Source of the DNA: Rhodothermales bacterium
Lineage (GTDB): Bacteria > Bacteroidota > Rhodothermia > Rhodothermales > JANQRZ01
Direction: 5' to 3'
DNA length: 64,000 nt
Assembly: GCA_039944855.1 (NCBI GenBank)
Contig: JBDUXZ010000005.1
Coordinates: 124,001 to 188,000, forward strand
Each line of letters starts with the position of its first letter. The stretch's first letter is position 1. Positions 31,909-40,753 of the stretch are shown here, piece by piece. Below the pieces are notes generated by a model that was not told the origin of the DNA, searched no databases, and saw only the letters and a list, made by a program, of their open reading frames with translations. A program made the translations under genes and the position numbers.

Positions 31909-33405
31909 ATGTCGCTTATGAATCGTCGTCGCTTCCTCACCCTCAGCCCCACGGCCGCGCCGAGTTCGCCCGCGCCTCCGCAACCCATCGCCTCCCCCCC
32001 GGCGGTGCGCGGCGGCCTCGAACCGTACACCCCCTCCGAGAGCGCGCCGTGGGACGAGCGCCGGGCGGCCCACCTCGTCCGCCGCCTCGCCTTCGGCGCC
32101 TCCGTGCCGGACCTCACCGAGGCCCTCTTCCGCACCCCGTCGCAGGCCGTCGACTACTTCGTCGACCAGGCCCTCGCGCGCCCGCTGCCCGATACGCCGA
32201 CGTGGTACAACTCCACCCCGAACGGCGGCCAGCAGAACATCGACTGGCTCTATGCCTGGCAGGAAGGCTGGTATGCCGAGATGCGCGCCGGCGGCCTTCG
32301 CGAGAAGATGACGCTCTTCTGGCACGACCACTTCGCCACCGAGGTAAACGTCTACGGCCTCGCGCCCTACGCCTACCAGTACCTCACGCACCTCCGCACG
32401 CACGCGCTCGGCAACTTCCGCACCCTCCTGAGCGGCGTCGGCACGCTCCCGGCGATGCTGATCTACCTCGACGGCAACTCGAACACGGCCGGCGACCCGA
32501 ACGAGAACTACGCCCGCGAGCTGTACGAGCTGTTCACGATGGGGATCGGCAACTACGAGCAGGAGGACGTCTCGGAGACAGCCCGCGCGCTCACCGGCTG
32601 GCGCGTCAACGCCGGCACGCTCTCGTCCTCCTTCGACCCCGCCCGCCACGATGGCGGCCAGAAGACGATTTTCGGCCAGACCGGAGCCTGGGGCTACGCC
32701 GACGTCCTCGACCTCGTCTTCGCGCAGCGCGGGGCGATCACGGCGCAACGCCTCTGCCGCAAGCTCTACGAGTGGTTCGTCTACGGCGTCCCGAACGACT
32801 CCGTCGTGCAGGGCATGGCGGCGACCCTCGTGGCGAACGACTGGAACGTCGCGCCCGTACTGCGCCAGCTCTTCAAGAGCGCGCACTTCTTCGACGACGC
32901 GTTCATCGGCGCCCAGCTCAAGGACCCGTCCGACTTCCTCATCGGGCTCGTGCGCGAGCTCGGACTCACGCCCTCGGCCGAGATGTGGTCGACGTACCGC
33001 GAGCTCGGCTTCACGCTCGGGCAGGAGCTGCTGAACCCGCCGAACGTGGCGGGATGGGACGGCTACCGGACGTGGATCACGACGGGCTCCGTGCCCGAGC
33101 GGCAGATCGTCACCGCCTCCGCCCTCTTCGGCGGCGGGCCGTTCGACGCTTACGACCCGCTCCCGCTCATCGAGCAGATCACCGACCCGACGAACGTCTA
33201 CTCCGTCGCCGGCGACCTCGCCGACTTCCTCCTCACGGCCACCTTCGACGAAGAGGAGCGGGCCTTCCACGTCGAAATCCTCCTCGCCGGCGCGCCCTAC
33301 TACGAGTGGCCCCTCCTCGTGCAGACGAGCCCGGAGACGGCGAAGGAACGGCTTCGCAACCTGCTGAACCACCTCGTCACGCTCCCCGAGTTCCAGCTTA
33401 CGTGA
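31909..33405 (+). CDS. DUF1800 domain-containing protein (copy 1)
   Basis: The product is 498 residues; the ATG at 31909 or the one at 31918 could be used. The N terminus has a twin-arginine-like motif (NRRRFLTLS) but only a weak hydrophobic stretch after it. DUF1800 hallmarks are PWDERRAAHLVRRLAFG, LFWHDHFATE, GDPNENYARELYELFTMG, the KTIFGQTGAWGY block and NPPNVAGWDGYRTWI. DUF1800 function is unknown, but its genes are nearly always followed by a DUF1501 gene, as here after 50 bases. The pair is duplicated at 37481-40753. Confidence 0.92.
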   Translation: MSLMNRRRFLTLSPTAAPSSPAPPQPIASPPAVRGGLEPYTPSESAPWDERRAAHLVRRLAFGASVPDLTEALFRTPSQAVDYFVDQALARPLPDTPTWYNSTPNGGQQNIDWLYAWQEGWYAEMRAGGLREKMTLFWHDHFATEVNVYGLAPYAYQYLTHLRTHALGNFRTLLSGVGTLPAMLIYLDGNSNTAGDPNENYARELYELFTMGIGNYEQEDVSETARALTGWRVNAGTLSSSFDPARHDGGQKTIFGQTGAWGYADVLDLVFAQRGAITAQRLCRKLYEWFVYGVPNDSVVQGMAATLVANDWNVAPVLRQLFKSAHFFDDAFIGAQLKDPSDFLIGLVRELGLTPSAEMWSTYRELGFTLGQELLNPPNVAGWDGYRTWITTGSVPERQIVTASALFGGGPFDAYDPLPLIEQITDPTNVYSVAGDLADFLLTATFDEEERAFHVEILLAGAPYYEWPLLVQTSPETAKERLRNLLNHLVTLPEFQLT

Positions 33406-33455
33406 TGCGATAGCGACGCCCTCACTCCGTCTGCGCCCCCTAGCCCCCGAGCCCT

Positions 33456-35111
33456 ATGTGTGATCACCACGACCACCACGCGCCTGCCGCCGCCGAACCC
33501 GAGGTCACCGCCGCTGAAGGCCGCGCGATCGCCCTCGAGCACGGCGCCGACCACGACCGCGACCACGCCCTCTGGAGCCGCCGCGACTTCATCACGCGCT
33601 CCAGTGTCGCCGCCGGCGCGGCGTCGTTCCTCCTCGGCACCCGGCAGGTCAGCGCGCTCGGCCACGCGCCCCTCCTCCAGCGCCTCGCCCAGCTCGACGG
33701 CAACCGCTCGCTCGTGATCGTGCAGATGGCCGGCGGCAACGACGGGCTCAACACGATCATCCCGATCACGAACGACCGCTACTACCAGGTCCGCCCGACG
33801 ATCGCGATCCCCGGCAGCCAGGCCGTCGCGCTCGACGCCGACACCGGCATGCACCCGGCGATGAACGCGCTCGAACCGATGTGGGGCGACGGGCAGATGG
33901 CCGTGCTCCAGACCGTCGGCTACCCGTCGCACAACCTCTCGCACTTCCGCTCGACCGACATCTGGGCCTCGGGCAGCCCGGCCGACGACTACGTCCGCAG
34001 CGGGTGGACCGGCCGCTACTTCGACAACCAGTTCCCCGACTACGGCCAGGCGCCGCCCGACTTCCCCGTCGCGATCCGCATCGGCGGCGCGACGTCGACG
34101 CTGCTCCGCGGCGGCGATCTCACGATGGGGATGAGCCTTTCCAGCCCGCGGCAGCTGCAAGACCTCGCCGAAGACGGGACGATCTACGACGAGGCCGACG
34201 TGCCGCCGACGGCCCACGGCGACGAGGTCGCGTTCGTCCGCTCGATCTTCAACGCCTCGTTCCGCTACCGCGACTCCGTCGTCGACGCCGCCGCTGCGGC
34301 CGAGAACAGCGTCGAGTACCCCGCTGACGGCTTTGCCGAGACGCTCGCCGTCATCGCCCGGATGATCAAAGGCGGGCTCGGCGCCCGGCTCTACGTCCTC
34401 CAGATTGGCGGGTTCGACACGCACTCGAACCAGGCGAGCCGGCACCAGCAGATCCTCGGCCGCCTCGCGAACGGGATGAGCGCGTTCTTCGCCGACCTCG
34501 CCGCGGGCGGCGCCCAAGACGACGTGCTCGCGATGACGTTCTCCGAGTTCGGCCGCCGCGTCGAGGAAAACGGCTCGAACGGGACCGACCACGGCACGGC
34601 CGCGCCGATGATGCTCTTCGGCGGCGGGATCAACGGCGGGCTTTACGGCGACGCGCCCGACCTCCTCGACCTCGACAACGCGGGCAACCTCCGCCACTCG
34701 ATCGACTTCCGGCAGGCCTACGCCACCGTCCTCACGCAATGGTTTGGCCTGCCCACGGCCGACGTGGAGAACATTCTCTATGACAGCTTCGAGCCGCTCG
34801 GCTTCATCGCCGACCCCGTCGCCGCCGACGGCGGCCCCTCCGCCCCGCTCGATTTCGCCGTCGAGGGCAACTACCCCAACCCCTTCACGAGCCGAACCAC
34901 GATCCGCTTCCGCCTCGGCGACGCCGGCCCGGTGCAGGTCCGCGTGTTCGACCTGCAAGGCCGCGAGGTGCGCACGCTCGTAGACGGCCCGCTCGCCGCC
35001 GGCACGCACAGCCTGTCGTTCGAGGCGCTCGACCTCCCGAGCGGCACGTACCTCTACCAGATCGAGACGCGGCGCGGCGCCCAGAGCCGCCCGATGACGC
35101 TCGTCCGATAA
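33456..35111 (+). CDS. DUF1501 protein with twin-arginine-like signal and T9SS sorting domain (copy 1)
   Basis: The product is 551 residues. It opens MCDHHDHHAPAAAE, with Cys 2 and a His cluster, then HGADHDRDHALWSRRDFI, a twin-arginine-like motif before a short hydrophobic stretch. The body is DUF1501 (related to the sulfatase/alkaline phosphatase fold), with VQMAGGNDGLNTIIP, SHFRSTDIWASG, IGGFDTHSNQ and FSEFGRRVEENGSNGTDHG. The last 80 residues form a type A T9SS sorting domain starting NYPNPFTSRTTIRF and ending RPMTLVR. It is thus predicted to be exported and then handed to T9SS. Its role is unknown. Confidence 0.92.
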   Translation: MCDHHDHHAPAAAEPEVTAAEGRAIALEHGADHDRDHALWSRRDFITRSSVAAGAASFLLGTRQVSALGHAPLLQRLAQLDGNRSLVIVQMAGGNDGLNTIIPITNDRYYQVRPTIAIPGSQAVALDADTGMHPAMNALEPMWGDGQMAVLQTVGYPSHNLSHFRSTDIWASGSPADDYVRSGWTGRYFDNQFPDYGQAPPDFPVAIRIGGATSTLLRGGDLTMGMSLSSPRQLQDLAEDGTIYDEADVPPTAHGDEVAFVRSIFNASFRYRDSVVDAAAAAENSVEYPADGFAETLAVIARMIKGGLGARLYVLQIGGFDTHSNQASRHQQILGRLANGMSAFFADLAAGGAQDDVLAMTFSEFGRRVEENGSNGTDHGTAAPMMLFGGGINGGLYGDAPDLLDLDNAGNLRHSIDFRQAYATVLTQWFGLPTADVENILYDSFEPLGFIADPVAADGGPSAPLDFAVEGNYPNPFTSRTTIRFRLGDAGPVQVRVFDLQGREVRTLVDGPLAAGTHSLSFEALDLPSGTYLYQIETRRGAQSRPMTLVR

Positions 35112-35149
35112 CGCCCTCCCCCCGCTCCACCCCACCACGCCGACGACCC

Positions 35150-36145
35150 ATGAAACCCACGCTGTTCTTCCTCTTCTTCCTCGCCCTCGCCGTCACCGGC
35201 TGCGACGCCACGGGCGACGAGCCCGGCTCCGGCCCGAACGGGAGCGCCCCCGGCTACCCCGTCGTCGTCGACGAGCAGTGGGGCTTCGCCGACGCGCGCG
35301 GCTCCCTCCGCATCGCCCCCCGCTTCACGTTCGCCGATGACTATGCCGACGGCCGCGCCGCCGTGCAGATGGGCCCGTTCTGGGGCTTCGTCGACGAAGC
35401 CGGCAACGAGGTGATCGCGCCGCAGTTCGACTTCGCCGGACGCTTCGGCGACGGCCTCGCCCCAATCCGCACGATCGAGGGCTGGGGCTACATCGACGCC
35501 GCCGGGACGGTCGTCGTGGCGCCCGCCTACGACAACGCCCGCTCGCTCTCTGACAACCGGGGCGCGGTGAAAGACGGCCTTCGCTGGGGCTACGTCGACG
35601 GCAGCGGCGCGGTCGCGATCGAGCCGCAGTTCGCCTTCGCCAGCGACTTCTCCGAGGGGCTCGCCGCCGTCGAGACCGTCGAGGGCTGGGGCTACATCGA
35701 GGCCAGCGGCGCCCTCGCGATCCCGGCGAGCTACGGCGACGCGAAGGCGTTCAACGACGGCCGCGCCCCCGTCCGCATCGGCGACCGTTGGGGCTACATC
35801 GACCGGAGCGGCAGCCTCGTCGTGAACCCGCGCTACGGCAACGCCGGGCTGTTCTCCGAGGGCACCGCGCCCGTGCAGATCGACGGCCGCTGGGGCTTCA
35901 TCGACGCCTCCGGCGAGGTCGTCATCCGCCCGCAGTTCGACGAGGCGAAGGCGTGCTCCGAGAACCGCGCACCCGTCCGCCTCGGCTCGCGCTGGAGCTA
36001 CATCGACTGCGACGACGGCCTCGTCATCACGACGCCGCGCTTCACCGCCGCCTACCCCTTCAACGGCATCGCCAAAGTCGAGCTCGACAGCCGCGTCGGT
36101 TACATCGACCGCGCCGGCGAGTACGTCTGGGTCCCCACCGACTGA
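35150..36145 (+). CDS. WG-repeat lipoprotein (copy 1)
   Basis: The product is 331 residues. The signal ends in ALAVTGCDA (Cys 18), so it is a lipoprotein. The rest is a chain of about nine WG repeats of roughly 33 residues, each with W-G-[FY]-[IVF]-D followed by a G and [IV]-x-P-x-[FY], for example WGFVDEAGNEVIAPQF and WGYIDRSGSLVVNPRY. Two later units are degenerate (WSYIDCDDG, VGYIDRAGEYVW). WG repeats (PF14903) are beta-rich and of unknown function. It lies 38 bases after the DUF1501 gene and is very likely in the same operon. Confidence 0.92.
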   Translation: MKPTLFFLFFLALAVTGCDATGDEPGSGPNGSAPGYPVVVDEQWGFADARGSLRIAPRFTFADDYADGRAAVQMGPFWGFVDEAGNEVIAPQFDFAGRFGDGLAPIRTIEGWGYIDAAGTVVVAPAYDNARSLSDNRGAVKDGLRWGYVDGSGAVAIEPQFAFASDFSEGLAAVETVEGWGYIEASGALAIPASYGDAKAFNDGRAPVRIGDRWGYIDRSGSLVVNPRYGNAGLFSEGTAPVQIDGRWGFIDASGEVVIRPQFDEAKACSENRAPVRLGSRWSYIDCDDGLVITTPRFTAAYPFNGIAKVELDSRVGYIDRAGEYVWVPTD

Positions 36146-36172
36146 TCCCACCCGAGCGCTACCTCCGTCCTC

Positions 36173-36200
36173 GTACAGACGCAGCATGCTGCGTCTCTAC
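36173..36200. repeat. palindromic repeat, family C, copy 1
   Basis: A perfect 20-bp palindrome (AGACGCAGCATGCTGCGTCT, 36177-36196) is extended to 28 bp by GTA/TAC ends with one mismatch. It lies in the gap before the second WG gene. Confidence 0.85.
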
Positions 36201-36227
36201 TACCCCGCTTTCATCTGCATCGAACCC

Positions 36228-37247
36228 ATGCGCTACGCCTTCCTCCTCCTCTTCCTCGTCCCGTTCTGGGCCGCGTGCGACACGGCCTCCGACGACGGCA
36301 CGGGCCCCGGCTCCTCCGGTGACGAGCGCCCGACGCTCTTCCCCGTCGAGCGCAACGACCTCTGGGGCTACATCGACAACGCCGGCGGGATCGTGATCCA
36401 GCCCGAGTACTACAGCGCCCGCCCGTTCTACGGCGACTTCGGCCCCGTGCGCGGCCGGCGCAACAACCAGAACTTCTGGGGCTACATCACCCGCGACGGT
36501 GAGATCGCGTTCGACCTCCCCGTCGACGAAGCCTTCCCCTTCTCCGGCGGCGTCGCGCGCGTTCGTGCCGGTGGGCGGTATGGCTACGTCAACACCGAGG
36601 GCCGCTACGTCATCAACCCCGTCTTCGGGCAGGCGGGCGACTTCAAAGGGGGCGTGGCGCGCGTGCAGATGAACGGGCACTACGGCTTCATCGACCGGAG
36701 CGGTGCGTTCGTGATCGAGCCCGACTACGACGAGGTCGAGAATTTCGCCGACGGCCGCGCGCTCTTCCGCGACGACGACGACGACAAGTACGGCTACCTC
36801 GACCGCGACGGGGCGGTGGCGATCGAGCCGCAGTTCGATCAGGCCCGCTCGTTCGCCGACGGCCGCGCCGCCGTCAAAGTCGGCGACCGCTGGGGCTACA
36901 TCGACACCGACGGCCGCTTCGCCATCGACCCCCGCTTCATCAGCGCCGGCGACTTCGGCGACGGCCGCGCGCCGGTCCGCACCGAGAACCTCTGGGAGTA
37001 CGTGAACGAGCGCGGCGAGCGTGTGATCGCCCCGGCTTTCGACGACGCCCGCGCGTTCAGCGAGGGCCGCGCCGCCGTCCGCACCGAAGGCCGCTGGGGC
37101 TTCATCGACGAGGCGGGCAACGTCCTCCGCGGGCCCGACTTCGACGAGGTGGACGCGTTCGAAGGCGGCGTCGCCCGCGTGTGGGTCGGCGAGCTGATGG
37201 GCTACATCGGCACGGGCGGGCAGTACGTCTGGATCCCCGCGCAGTAA
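36228..37247 (+). CDS. WG-repeat lipoprotein (copy 2)
   Basis: The product is 339 residues from the ATG at 36228; an upstream ATG at 36186 lies inside a palindrome and would precede the signal peptide. The lipobox is LVPFWAACDT (Cys 15). About nine WG units follow (WGYIDNAGGIVIQPEY, YGFIDRSGAFVIEPDY, WGYIDTDGRFAIDPRF and so on). A DDDDDKYGY insert is in the middle. Like copy 1 it ends with a GYIGTGGQYVW unit, so the two are paralogues that share their terminal repeat. It sits between the two DUF1800-DUF1501 pairs. Confidence 0.92.
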   Translation: MRYAFLLLFLVPFWAACDTASDDGTGPGSSGDERPTLFPVERNDLWGYIDNAGGIVIQPEYYSARPFYGDFGPVRGRRNNQNFWGYITRDGEIAFDLPVDEAFPFSGGVARVRAGGRYGYVNTEGRYVINPVFGQAGDFKGGVARVQMNGHYGFIDRSGAFVIEPDYDEVENFADGRALFRDDDDDKYGYLDRDGAVAIEPQFDQARSFADGRAAVKVGDRWGYIDTDGRFAIDPRFISAGDFGDGRAPVRTENLWEYVNERGERVIAPAFDDARAFSEGRAAVRTEGRWGFIDEAGNVLRGPDFDEVDAFEGGVARVWVGELMGYIGTGGQYVWIPAQ

Positions 37248-37415
37248 CCCCCGCGCCTCCCGTTTGCCGCCCCGGCCCGGTCCGAGCGTCGCCCCCGCGA
37301 CGCCTGCCGAGCCGGGGCGCTGTCGTATTCCGGTGCCGGATCGCGCCTGCGCGTGTGACTTCGATCACGGCACTCGCGGCTCCCCCTTCGACCCAACGCC
37401 AGCGCGCACTGCACT

Positions 37416-37443
37416 TTGCGCCGGCCGATCGACTCGCTATCCT
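37416..37443 (+). promoter_or_regulatory. sigma70-like promoter of the second DUF1800 gene
   Basis: TTGCGC at 37416-37421 and TATCCT at 37438-37443 are 16 bases apart. The distance to the ATG at 37481 is 37 bases. A GTG at 37451 would be only 7 bases past the -10, which argues for the ATG. Confidence 0.5.
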
Positions 37444-37480
37444 GTAGCTCGTGTCCCGCCCCTCCCGACCCCGGCGCCTC

Positions 37481-39115
37481 ATGGACCGTCGCTCTTTCCT
37501 CCGCTCTGCCACGCCGTTGCTGCCTGAAGCCCTCGCCACGGCAGCCCTGCCTGCAGACCCGCCGTTCGAGTACCTGCCCGGCCGCTTCAGCGACCCGCGC
37601 CTGCCGATCCGCTGGACGTCGAGCGAAGCCGAGCGCCCCGCACCGGCGCCGCCCTCGGGCGAGCCGCTCCGCACGCAGACCGGGCTCGAACCCTTCGTCC
37701 CCTCCGCCGACGCGCCGTGGGACCGCCGCCGGGCGTTGCACCTCCTCCGCCGCACCGGCTTCGGCGCCCGCCCCGAGGACGCCGACGTCGTGCTCGCCCT
37801 CACTCCCGCCGCCGCCGTCGATGCCCTCGTGGACGCCACGCTCGAGGCCTCGCTGCCGCCGGTGCCGCCGTGGATCGACGAGCCGCCGCCGCCGCCCGAC
37901 GCGCCGCCCGGCGAGCTCGACTCCTACATCCAGCAGACGATCCAGTGGATCTACGACACGGAGCACGAGGTCTACCGCGAGGCGCTCGTGCTCCGCGCCG
38001 CCGGAACCGCCTTCCGCGAGCGGCTCGCCCTGATGTGGCACAACCACTTCGTGACAGGCCTCGAGGACTACTTCCTCGCTCCGTGGCTCTACCGCTACTG
38101 GACCCTCCTCCGCACGCACGCCCTCGGCGACTTCCGACAGTTCGTCTACGAGATCGGGTTAACGCCGGCGATGCTGATCTACCTCAACGGCATCCAGAAC
38201 CGCGTCGGCGAGCCGAACGAGAACTACGCCCGCGAACTCCTGGAGCTGTTCACGATGGGGATCACCGGGCCGGACGGCACGCCGAACTACACGCAGGACG
38301 ACATCGAGGAGTTGGCGCGCGCGCTCACCGGCTGGACCGTCGACCTCTATGGCACGCTCGAGTCCGTCTTCATTCCGCCGTGGCACGATGCGGGGACGAA
38401 GACGATCTTCGGCCAGACGGGGACGTGGGGCTACGACGACGTGGTGCCGCTCCTCTTCGCACAGCGCGCGCCCCAGATCGCGTATCACATCGCGGATGTG
38501 CTCTACCGCGAGTTCGTCTACGAAGTCCCCGACCCCGACGTCGTCGCCGACCTCGCTGCTGAATTGGAGGCGAACGACTTCCAGCTTGAACCGACCGTCC
38601 GCACCCTCCTCCGGAGCGCGCACTTCTTCGATGCCGCTACGATCGGTGCCCGCGTTAAGAGCCCGGCGGGGCTCACGCTCGGGCTCTATCACGAGATCGG
38701 GCTCGCCGAGGACATCGAACTCTTCGAGATCACCCGCTTCGTGATGGCGCTCACGAACCAGCGGTTGTTCCAGCCGCCGAACGTCGCCGGGTGGCCGGGC
38801 TATCGCGCCTGGCTCGACGCGAACACGCTCCCGCTCCGGTGGCTCTACGGCGACGCCATGCTGCCGCAGCAACAGACGTTGCAGGCCCTCGCGCTCGAAC
38901 TCCCGAACCCGTTCGACCCGTACGCCTTGACGGCGGACTTCGCGGCGCACTTCTTCGCCGTCCCCGTCGGCCCCGACACCCTCGCATCCTACGTCGAGAT
39001 CCTCCTCAACGGGATCCCGGACTACGAGTGGAACCCGAACGACCCCGGGGCCGAGGCCCGGTTGCTCGGCCTCGCCGCCCACCTGCTCCGCCTCCCCGAG
39101 TACCAGCTGACGTGA
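37481..39115 (+). CDS. DUF1800 domain-containing protein (copy 2)
   Basis: The product is 544 residues from the ATG at 37481, chosen because a promoter -10 element ends at 37443 and DRRSFLRS forms a twin-arginine-like motif just after it. DUF1800 marks are PWDRRRALHLLRRTGFGARPED, LMWHNHFVTG, GEPNENYARELLELFTMG and PPNVAGWPGYRAWLDANTLP. It is longer than copy 1, mainly by a Pro-rich linker (PAPAPPS region and PPPPPDAPPG). The partner DUF1501 gene follows after 24 bases. Confidence 0.92.
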   Translation: MDRRSFLRSATPLLPEALATAALPADPPFEYLPGRFSDPRLPIRWTSSEAERPAPAPPSGEPLRTQTGLEPFVPSADAPWDRRRALHLLRRTGFGARPEDADVVLALTPAAAVDALVDATLEASLPPVPPWIDEPPPPPDAPPGELDSYIQQTIQWIYDTEHEVYREALVLRAAGTAFRERLALMWHNHFVTGLEDYFLAPWLYRYWTLLRTHALGDFRQFVYEIGLTPAMLIYLNGIQNRVGEPNENYARELLELFTMGITGPDGTPNYTQDDIEELARALTGWTVDLYGTLESVFIPPWHDAGTKTIFGQTGTWGYDDVVPLLFAQRAPQIAYHIADVLYREFVYEVPDPDVVADLAAELEANDFQLEPTVRTLLRSAHFFDAATIGARVKSPAGLTLGLYHEIGLAEDIELFEITRFVMALTNQRLFQPPNVAGWPGYRAWLDANTLPLRWLYGDAMLPQQQTLQALALELPNPFDPYALTADFAAHFFAVPVGPDTLASYVEILLNGIPDYEWNPNDPGAEARLLGLAAHLLRLPEYQLT

Positions 39116-39139
39116 TCGCGTCACCGATCCCCTGAGCCC

Positions 39140-40753
39140 ATGTGTGACCACGCCCACTCCGGCCCTCGCGCGATCTCGCTCGACCACGGCCGGGACCACG
39201 ACCGCGATCACGCCGCCTGGACCCGCCGCGACTTCCTCCTGCGGTCCAGCGCCGCCGTGGCCGGGGGCTCCGTCCTCATCGGCAGTACGCCCGTCCGCGC
39301 GCTCGGCCACGCCCCCCTCCTCGACCACCTCGCCCGGCTCGAAACGGACCGCGTGCTCGTCCTCCTTCAACTCGGCGGCGGCAACGACGGGCTCAACACC
39401 ATCGTTCCGGTCACGAACGACCTCTACTACCAGCAGCGCCCGACGATCGCGATTCCCGGCTCTCAGACCGTGCCGCTGGGCGACGACTACGGGCTCCACC
39501 CCGCCCTCGGCCCGCTCGAAGCGACGTGGGGCGAGGGGCAGATGGCCGTCGTCCACTCCGTCGGCTACCCCGACCCGAACCTCTCCCACTTCCGCTCGAC
39601 CGACATCTGGCTCACGGCTTCCGACTCCGAAGAGACGCTGCTGACGGGCTGGGGCGGGCGCTACCTCGACGGCAAATTCCCCGACTTCGAAGCCGATCCG
39701 CCGACGTTTCCACCCGCCGTGCAGATCGGCACGTCGGCGCCCCTCCTGTTCCAGGGATCGGGCGTGAACCTGGGAATGTCGCTCGTCGACATCAACCTCT
39801 TCCTCCAGATTGCGCAGGGCGGCACGCCCTACGACCCCGCCGACGTCCCGCCCCTCCCCTATGGCGACGAACTCGCCTTCGTCCGCACCGTCGCGAACGA
39901 CTCGTTTCGCTACCTCGACGCGATCCAGGCCGCCACCGACGCCGCCGACAATGAAGTTGAATACCCCGGCGGCCCGCTCGCGCAGTCCCTGGCCGCCTGT
40001 GCCCGCCTCATCAAAGGCCGTCTCGGCGCGAGGATCTACCACGTCACGCTCGGCGGGTTCGACACGCACGCCGACCAGCCCGGCCAGCACGCGAACCTCC
40101 TCGGCACGCTCGCCACTTCCGTCCGCGCTTTTTACGACGACCTCGCCGCCTCCGACGACGACGCCCGCGTGCTCACGACGACGTTCTCCGAGTTCGGCCG
40201 TCGTATCGCCCAGAACGGCTCGAACGGGACGGACCACGGCACCGCCGCCCCGCTCTTCACCTTTGGCCCCCCCGTCGCCGGCGGGCTCTACGGCGACGGC
40301 CCCGACCTCGCCGCCACCGACGCCGACGGCAACCTCGTCCACACGACGGACTTCCGCTCGGTCTACGCCACGCTCCTCACCGACTGGTTCGGGCTCGCGC
40401 CCGGCACGGTCGAGGGGATTCTCGGCGGCCCGTTCGGGACGGTCCCGTTCGTAGCGAGCCCCGTTGCCTCGGGCGATGGCGCGGCGCCTCTCGCGTTTGG
40501 CCTCGACGCCGCGTACCCCAATCCCTTCCGGGATGCCGCGACCGTGACCTTCCACCTCAGCCGCCCCGGCGACGTGCGGCTCCGCGTCTACGACACCGCC
40601 GGCCGCCTCGTCGCCACGCTCGCGGAGGGATCGTTCCCCGCCGGATCGCATGCCGTGCGCTTCGACGCCGGGCGGCTCCCGAGTGGGAGTTACCACGGCG
40701 TGCTCGACAGCGCCGAGGGCCGCCGCTCGCGGACGATGACGCTCATCCGTTAG
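39140..40753 (+). CDS. DUF1501 protein with twin-arginine-like signal and T9SS sorting domain (copy 2)
   Basis: The product is 537 residues and a paralogue of the 33456 protein. It starts MCDHAHSGPRAISLDHGRD, again Cys 2 and His-rich, then HDRDHAAWTRRDFLLRSS (twin-arginine-like). DUF1501 motifs are LQLGGGNDGLNTIVP, SHFRSTDIWLTA, LGGFDTHADQ and FSEFGRRIAQNGSNGTDHG. The C-terminal T9SS domain begins AAYPNPFRDAATVTF and ends SRTMTLIR. The N-terminal Cys/His block and the tail are kept between copies although the middle has drifted, so both are probably used. Confidence 0.92.
   Translation: MCDHAHSGPRAISLDHGRDHDRDHAAWTRRDFLLRSSAAVAGGSVLIGSTPVRALGHAPLLDHLARLETDRVLVLLQLGGGNDGLNTIVPVTNDLYYQQRPTIAIPGSQTVPLGDDYGLHPALGPLEATWGEGQMAVVHSVGYPDPNLSHFRSTDIWLTASDSEETLLTGWGGRYLDGKFPDFEADPPTFPPAVQIGTSAPLLFQGSGVNLGMSLVDINLFLQIAQGGTPYDPADVPPLPYGDELAFVRTVANDSFRYLDAIQAATDAADNEVEYPGGPLAQSLAACARLIKGRLGARIYHVTLGGFDTHADQPGQHANLLGTLATSVRAFYDDLAASDDDARVLTTTFSEFGRRIAQNGSNGTDHGTAAPLFTFGPPVAGGLYGDGPDLAATDADGNLVHTTDFRSVYATLLTDWFGLAPGTVEGILGGPFGTVPFVASPVASGDGAAPLAFGLDAAYPNPFRDAATVTFHLSRPGDVRLRVYDTAGRLVATLAEGSFPAGSHAVRFDAGRLPSGSYHGVLDSAEGRRSRTMTLIR

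Follow-up and report, generated by a model that had tools for sequence, protein, structure and literature searches.

DUF1501 proteins with a conserved Cys/His-rich n-region, a twin-arginine-type signal and a T9SS tail, encoded beside DUF1800: a candidate route to the Bacteroidota surface

How might a protein travel when its two ends carry the addresses of two different export systems? The question is raised by two genes of the DUF1501 family in a stretch of Rhodothermales DNA (assembly GCA_039944855.1, contig JBDUXZ010000005.1, positions 124,001 to 188,000 of the forward strand), here called the window and 64,000 nucleotides long at its full length. Both DUF1501 proteins open with a Cys/His-rich segment, which we call the n-region; it precedes a signal of the twin-arginine translocation (Tat) type, and at the other end stands a type A tail of the type IX secretion system (T9SS). 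A first account of the locus, made from the letters alone (the sequence-only reading), had taken this combination to mean folded export followed by a second secretion step, an idea that is supported at the level of sequence. It missed the DUF1800 gene directly upstream of each DUF1501 gene, whose product carries no address, and is better extended to both genes of each pair. We give about an even chance to the following proposal: DUF1501, with its Tat and T9SS addresses, and DUF1800, as its hitchhiker, would reach the surface as a folded pair, with the n-region as a checkpoint. The region 31909–40753 of the window holds two DUF1800–DUF1501 gene pairs on the plus strand, separated by two genes for WG-repeat proteins, and its features are as follows.

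31909–33405, plus strand: DUF1800 partner of copy 1, 498 residues (Pfam DUF1800 325 bits, residues 55–497).
33456–35111, plus strand: DUF1501 copy 1, 551 residues, with n-region, Tat-type signal, predicted alkaline-phosphatase-superfamily domain (about residues 83–445) and T9SS type A tail (residues 473–551).
33456–33578, plus strand: copy 1 Cys/His-rich n-region, residues 1–41 (MCDHHDHH...LEHGADHDRDHALWS); single in-frame start; conserved H33, H37 and W40.
33579–33656, plus strand: copy 1 twin-arginine signal, RRDF and a moderately hydrophobic core (TIGR01409 21.1 bits, residues 40–67; hydropathy 1.62).
34872–35111, plus strand: copy 1 T9SS type A C-terminal sorting domain, YPNPF ... MTLVR (TIGR04183 36.1 bits; PF18962 30.4 bits).
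37451–39115, plus strand: DUF1800 partner of copy 2, 554 residues counted from GTG 37451 (Pfam DUF1800 324 bits).
39140–39223, plus strand: copy 2 Cys/His-rich n-region, residues 1–28 (MCDHAHSG...LDHGRDHDRDHAAWT); single in-frame start; placed by alignment of same-order relatives.
39140–40753, plus strand: DUF1501 copy 2, 537 residues, architecture as in copy 1.
40511–40753, plus strand: copy 2 T9SS type A sorting domain, YPNPF ... MTLIR (TIGR04183 25.9 bits on the genome scan, 21.9 on the protein scan).

Is the n-region translated at all? A Met-Cys-Asp-His opening had been reported for both copies and is present in both; the stretch of some 35 residues said to follow is the mean of two different lengths, 41 residues before the twin arginine (RR) in copy 1 and 28 in copy 2. 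If the annotated start were wrong, translation would begin at or near the RR, as it does in a sister clade of relatives that begins at M[K/N]RR. However, an in-frame stop lies 4 codons before the start in one copy and 8 codons before it in the other, and between the start and the RR neither copy has an in-frame ATG, GTG, TTG or CTG besides the ATG of MCDH. That ATG is thus the sole start between upstream stop and RR; a conserved internal start, named at the outset as a finding that would overturn the segment, was looked for and is absent from both. The segment is also conserved at the protein level, with a low ratio of nonsynonymous to synonymous polymorphism (pN/pS). Orthologues starting at the RR, the other such finding, are indeed present, yet a tree calculated without the segment places them in a clade of their own, which points to a single event of gain or loss rather than to a wrong start. 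A wrong start is refuted for both window genes, and we leave it next to no chance.

What, then, is conserved in this segment? In an alignment of 24 proteins, comprising both copies and relatives from the same order, M1, G30, H33, H37, W40, R42, R43 and F45 are invariant. The pattern G..H...H..W.RR.F takes the place of the CDH...DHDRDH block that the sequence-only reading had suggested looking for, and the MCDH opening is not a conserved element either: openings vary (MCDH, MCQS, MSEA, MSHR, MEHG) around a core of HxxxHxxWx-RRxF. Among the 73 distinct relatives with a long n-region (the long class, defined below), HxxxHxxWx stands directly before the RR in 65 and HxxWx in 71, so a hydrophilic segment is indeed retained ahead of the Tat-type signal; 48 of the 73 open with MC and 62 have a Cys anywhere in the segment. 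Alignment A2 includes 48 long rows, of which 45 keep H33, all 48 keep H37 and 46 keep W40. Over the final 12 codons before the RR, pN/pS ranges from 0.03 to 0.41 in seven groups of close relatives, compared with 0.06 to 0.34 in the mature domain; the n-region is under purifying selection, with pN/pS in the mature-domain range.

The motif was also sought beyond known relatives, with a profile (A4) of the n-region segment plus the signal searched in 148 genomes of the phylum. Full-length matches, 28 in number, extended down to E 2e-8 for the weakest. All 22 that were fetched and checked are DUF1501 proteins, each with DUF1800 upstream; of the six others, one is window copy 2 and one lies in a DUF1501-scored frame (G128:C7). 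Eight weaker fetched matches (E 7e-5 and above) are other proteins, which match through the RR and hydrophobic part only and do not have the motif, so it is not a universal feature of Tat proteins. Among the fetched A4 matches, HxxxHxxWx-RRxF is found on DUF1501 only.

These data bear on a plain explanation, according to which the segment is the ordinary long Tat n-region of one lineage, aiding recognition by TatBC and having no role with metal or partner. Tat n-regions usually exceed those of general secretory (Sec) signals in length (PMC3316669; this and the other papers are cited from excerpts), and the best-kept residues, H37 and W40, adjoin the RR. Yet the composition is peculiar, with Cys at 3.8% and His at 16.2% against 0.33% and 2.3% in the remaining protein (11-fold and 7-fold enrichment) and a mean net charge of -1.19, RR excluded. 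A further Cys is present in 14 of the 25 rows that lack Cys2, versus 8 of the 48 that have it (p 0.001, for rows that are not independent), and the eight weaker A4 matches are RR-signal proteins that do without the motif. The n-region is the part that varies in the signal peptides of TorA and DmsA (PMC3316669), whereas in DUF1501 it is conserved, which argues for a different use. We consider the ordinary n-region an unlikely explanation.

Metal binding by the n-region is only suggested, by the Cys/His enrichment and the two near-invariant His. In the structure model of copy 1, mean predicted local distance difference test (pLDDT) scores are 69–77 for residues 21–40 versus 35–58 for residues 41–70, as might be expected if the n-region docked on the enzyme, but also a level that isolated helices can reach. 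A [VILT]-x-A sequence lies 17–34 residues past the RR in 64 of the 73 long-class proteins, and cleavage of copy 1 is likely after VSA at residue 67, a site chosen by eye. With such a putative site past the RR, the n-region should be removed together with the signal peptide, and should be an element of the cytoplasmic phase, not part of the surface protein.

Variants of the segment were seen as well. L060, L062 and L052, which come from Aquimarina and a further flavobacterium, lack the first His of HxxxH and have a Cys at the preceding position instead (CNNQEHKKW); exchange of Cys and His is frequent at metal ligands. A second DUF1501 type, seen in L178 among relatives from the class, has the n-region MKRIKGSALKDGIHHDHHHCESINRKEF, which is His/Cys-rich, does not contain HxxxHxxW and has RK for RR; frames in G095, G176, G128, G099 and G091 are perhaps similar.

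The length of the n-region splits the family sharply, and we defined a long class of at least 12 residues (12–65 were found) and a short class of at most 9. Of 115 DUF1501 frames, eight without an anchor or RR were dropped (L016, L027, L055, L068, L075, L083, L086 and L111); from the remaining 107 we omitted L010 and L063, which have no ATG before the RR in the piece available, and three identical rows, and the classification gave 73 long and 29 short proteins. Seven previously omitted short rows were restored for a maximum-likelihood tree of the mature domain only, with n-region and tail removed, and one branch separates the 73 long from the resulting 36 short rows (Shimodaira–Hasegawa-like approximate likelihood ratio test 100; 0 of 500 shuffles as low). 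The long class comprises Rhodothermota, Balneolota, Flavobacteriaceae and Saprospiraceae, and the short class, whose members start at M[K/N]RRxF, comprises Chitinophagaceae, Sphingobacteriales, Cytophagaceae, Ignavibacteriota and others. Beyond these, 12 plasmid loci (ten proteobacterial, one acidobacterial and one from Persicobacter), one of them without an intact DUF1501, supplied 11 DUF1501 proteins, all with at most eight residues before the RR as judged by eye. These favor a gain of the segment over a loss, the tree itself being unrooted.

Do the two ends of the protein carry the addresses that they appear to? The twin-arginine motif S/T-R-R-x-F reads SRRDF in one copy and TRRDF in the other and is followed by a moderately hydrophobic h-region (hydropathy 1.6). 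Against a cut-off of 16.7, the Tat signal model TIGR01409 passes on the protein scan for copy 1 and on the genome scan for both copies (24.9 bits for copy 1 and 20.3 for copy 2). For TIGR04183 the cut-off is 23, so copy 2 falls below it on the protein scan and above it on the genome scan; both copies thus end in a T9SS type A domain, as had been claimed. The tail is found in 77 of 86 relatives. The genome encodes tatC (G000:C20:237409-238074) and SprA, the T9SS translocon (1581 bits). Of 247 genomes, 115 have DUF1501 and 190 have SprA, and SprA is present in 113 of the 115 DUF1501 genomes versus 77 of the 132 others (Fisher 8e-16, all DUF1501 subfamilies counted, many of them about 490 residues long); the frames of the two DUF1501 genomes without SprA have 400 and 462 residues. 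When the coordinates of 139 T9SS-tail frames and 16 Tat-signal frames (E 1 or better) in the window's own genome were compared by eye, the overlap consisted of the two DUF1501 proteins only, although TIGR01409 is short and insensitive, so two of 139 may reflect low sensitivity, and further T9SS cargo of the Tat type may have escaped notice.

Since the signal is of the twin-arginine type, not of the Sec type that reviews ascribe to T9SS type A cargo, we limit ourselves to saying that DUF1501 carries a T9SS type A tail. An alternative is that DUF1501 is exported by Sec and that its RR is incidental. According to reviews, T9SS cargo cross the inner membrane by Sec (PMC9127263, PMC5449463), a third review has cargo arriving by Sec also (PMC9251779), and Tat is said to feed the type II secretion system only (PMC5449463). 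Against this stand the RRxF motif, kept in nearly all long-class rows (R42 in 48 of 48 and R43 in 47 of 48), the Tat model scores of both copies, the modest hydrophobicity of the signal, and the presence of RR signals on the DUF1501 proteins of distant plasmids too. We regard incidental arginines and Sec export as very unlikely.

The partner adds a further element. DUF1800 lies directly upstream of DUF1501 in nearly every locus with enough sequence, and in the window its stop codon is 50 bases (copy 1) and 24 bases (copy 2) from the DUF1501 start. The copy 1 partner begins MSLMNRRRFLTLSPTAAPSS, an RR box with no hydrophobic core, reaches a maximum 12-residue hydropathy of 0.58 ahead of its domain, and has no T9SS tail. 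For the copy 2 partner, the likelier start is ATG 37481, giving MDRRSFLRSATPLLPEALATAALPA, a degenerate and ambiguous Tat-like signal. An alignment of 48 DUF1800 proteins shows a stretch with a hydropathy of 1.5 or more ahead of the domain in just two, which belong to Chlorobiota and Fidelibacterota and not to Bacteroidota; in all 48 the protein extends no further than the domain and so has no T9SS tail. In 20 further stretches from the window's order, none of the 17 readable DUF1800 N termini reaches 1.5. As far as sequence can tell, the signal is on one partner only, as in Tat hitchhikers, the copy 2 partner being borderline. Hitchhiker export is an established mechanism, by which untagged hydrogenase subunits travel with a tagged partner (PMC10924467).

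The same arrangement could fit an unlikely alternative, in which DUF1800 is a dedicated cytoplasmic chaperone of the TorD/DmsD kind that binds the n-region, checks folding and passes DUF1501 on to Tat. A DUF1800 without export signals beside DUF1501 is compatible with this, as is the confinement of the motif to DUF1501, expected of a dedicated partner; no third gene recurs near long-class loci as a candidate export chaperone. However, short-class DUF1501 proteins, with no n-region, are still paired with a signal-less DUF1800, and in TorA and DmsA the n-region gives no chaperone specificity (PMC3316669). In other phyla, moreover, DUF1800 has Sec or lipoprotein signals of its own (in 7 of the 12 plasmid loci, by eye, and in L055), so the family is likely active outside the cytoplasm.

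Many DUF1800 proteins of Rhodothermales and Chitinophagales open with M[D/N/H]RRxFL, after which the hydrophobic core of a Tat signal is lacking (window 31909–31950 and 37481–37520; L192, L195, L201, L203, L059, L098 and L100); such a box may represent either decay or a docking motif. In the long-class pairs of Flavobacteriaceae and Saprospiraceae (L044–L110; for example L074:2452 and L060:2485), a Cys frequently stands immediately ahead of the DUF1800 domain (NCN, SCN, TCD); the window's DUF1800 proteins lack this Cys, a conceivable partner for the n-region Cys of DUF1501. The model of the copy 1 partner is all-helical (pLDDT 91, with residues 1–16 below 50), and Foldseek against the PDB gave nothing better than E 0.12.

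What kind of cargo would the pair be? Pfam DUF1501 (PF07394) scores 107 bits in copy 1 and 80 bits in copy 2 (cut-off 27). The copy 1 model (mean pLDDT 85) aligns with nucleotide pyrophosphatases/phosphodiesterases at Z 18.5 and a root-mean-square deviation of 3.4 over 249 residues at 12% identity, and its Foldseek matches include sulfatases and lipoteichoic-acid synthases (best E 9e-6). By this model, the fold of DUF1501 is that of the alkaline phosphatase superfamily, of the nucleotide pyrophosphatase/phosphodiesterase type. D96, D321, H323, D378 and H379, in GGND, FDTH and TDHG, are invariant in 86 rows and may correspond to the two-metal site of that superfamily. A sequence search for solved relatives found none for DUF1800 and, for DUF1501, just an Endonuclease I chain matching the tail region (E 0.077). 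A usual reason for Tat export is that a cofactor or metal is loaded in the cytoplasm.

We can now set out the proposed route. The pair would be translated, and DUF1501, a predicted metal-dependent enzyme, would fold, load its metal and bind DUF1800 in the cytoplasm. The n-region would serve as a checkpoint before the Tat signal, held or released by metal or partner, or by the enzyme itself. The folded DUF1501–DUF1800 pair would then pass through Tat, with DUF1800 as the hitchhiker, and cleavage near residue 67 would take off the entire n-region along with the signal peptide. Finally, T9SS would recognize the type A tail and carry the pair across the outer membrane to the surface. Sequence shows the start codon, the motif with its conservation and restriction to DUF1501, the Tat-type signal, the T9SS tail, tatC and sprA in the genome, the gene pairing and the missing addresses on DUF1800; the use of Tat and T9SS, complex formation, co-export, the order of events and the checkpoint role are what we infer from them. 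A bolder version, which we find doubtful, makes this a conserved Tat-to-T9SS relay by which an enzyme of two proteins would reach the Bacteroidota surface already folded, under a metal- or partner-sensing Cys/His gate, with the coreless DUF1800 box M[D/N]RRxFL as a docking-only contact with the Tat receptor.

Several observations weigh against the route, in addition to the Sec export of T9SS cargo already described. With TatC in 246 of 247 genomes, finding it here says little and its co-occurrence is uninformative, and TIGR01409 matches just 11 of 86 relatives at E 0.01. RK replaces RR in L034, L164, L167 and L178, and short-class Cytophagaceae proteins (L068, L075, L083 and L086) have no clean RR. 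DUF1501 frames of about 390–400 residues, too short for a tail, occur in T9SS genomes also. On the DUF1800 side, the borderline Tat-like N terminus of the copy 2 partner reaches a hydropathy of 1.25, and DUF1800 of L040 reaches 1.31.

The Cytophagaceae proteins named above, together with L087, have degenerate twin arginines (SRAEF, SRQKF, NRHDF, KRSEF and NRKSF), and Tat use may have been lost in them.

As for the surroundings of the two copies, they are 53% identical end to end, and no further DUF1501 gene turned up in the assembly of 4.6 Mb. In the mature-domain tree, copy 1 clusters with G001 and G002, genomes from its own family, and copy 2 stands apart; not being sisters, the copies look like old paralogues rather than a recent duplication. 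Scanning for promoters gave no hit, and terminator-like sites, two in number and both weak, were fewer than in shuffles. The WG-repeat proteins between the pairs (35150–36145 and 36186–37247) have starts that look lipoprotein-like by eye. In several of 23 loci, a gene 108–153 bases downstream is methionyl-tRNA synthetase-like by eye, a matter of lineage synteny.

If this widespread family uses both the Tat signal and the T9SS tail, T9SS can accept proteins folded in the cytoplasm, and there would be a natural path for surface display of metalloenzymes. DUF1501 and DUF1800, often paired domains of unknown function, would gain a testable common mechanism, and a signal-peptide n-region carrying conserved information is unusual. 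A literature search covering titles and the beginnings of abstracts gave no report of a cargo with a Tat signal and a T9SS tail, although a subscription paper may exist.

How does the pair compare with known systems? Like the Tat hitchhiker pairs (periplasmic [NiFe]-hydrogenases, formate dehydrogenases and E. coli PaoABC; PMC10924467, PMC4273604), it has a signal on one subunit, a signal-less neighbor and a predicted metal enzyme; unlike them, it is a proposed complex, its end station would be the outer membrane or surface by virtue of the T9SS tail, and its n-region is Cys/His-rich and net negative. With T9SS type A cargo (TIGR04183, PF18962) it shares the C-terminal type A domain and a genome with SprA, whereas the first address of DUF1501 is of the Tat type, not Sec. 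With the nucleotide pyrophosphatase/phosphodiesterase branch of the alkaline phosphatase superfamily, DUF1501 shares the predicted fold and the invariant Asp and His of GGND, FDTH and TDHG, but it is only 12% identical and is fused to a T9SS tail. Similar in organization are the DUF1501–DUF1800 pairs of Proteobacteria and Acidobacteriota, with the same gene order and an RR signal on DUF1501; an operon of DUF1800 and DUF1501, with a twin-arginine motif on DUF1501, has been described beside bacterial chitin synthase genes (PMC5122149). In those pairs, however, the n-region is at most eight residues long (11 plasmid DUF1501 proteins) and DUF1800 brings a signal of its own in 7 of 12 loci, by eye.

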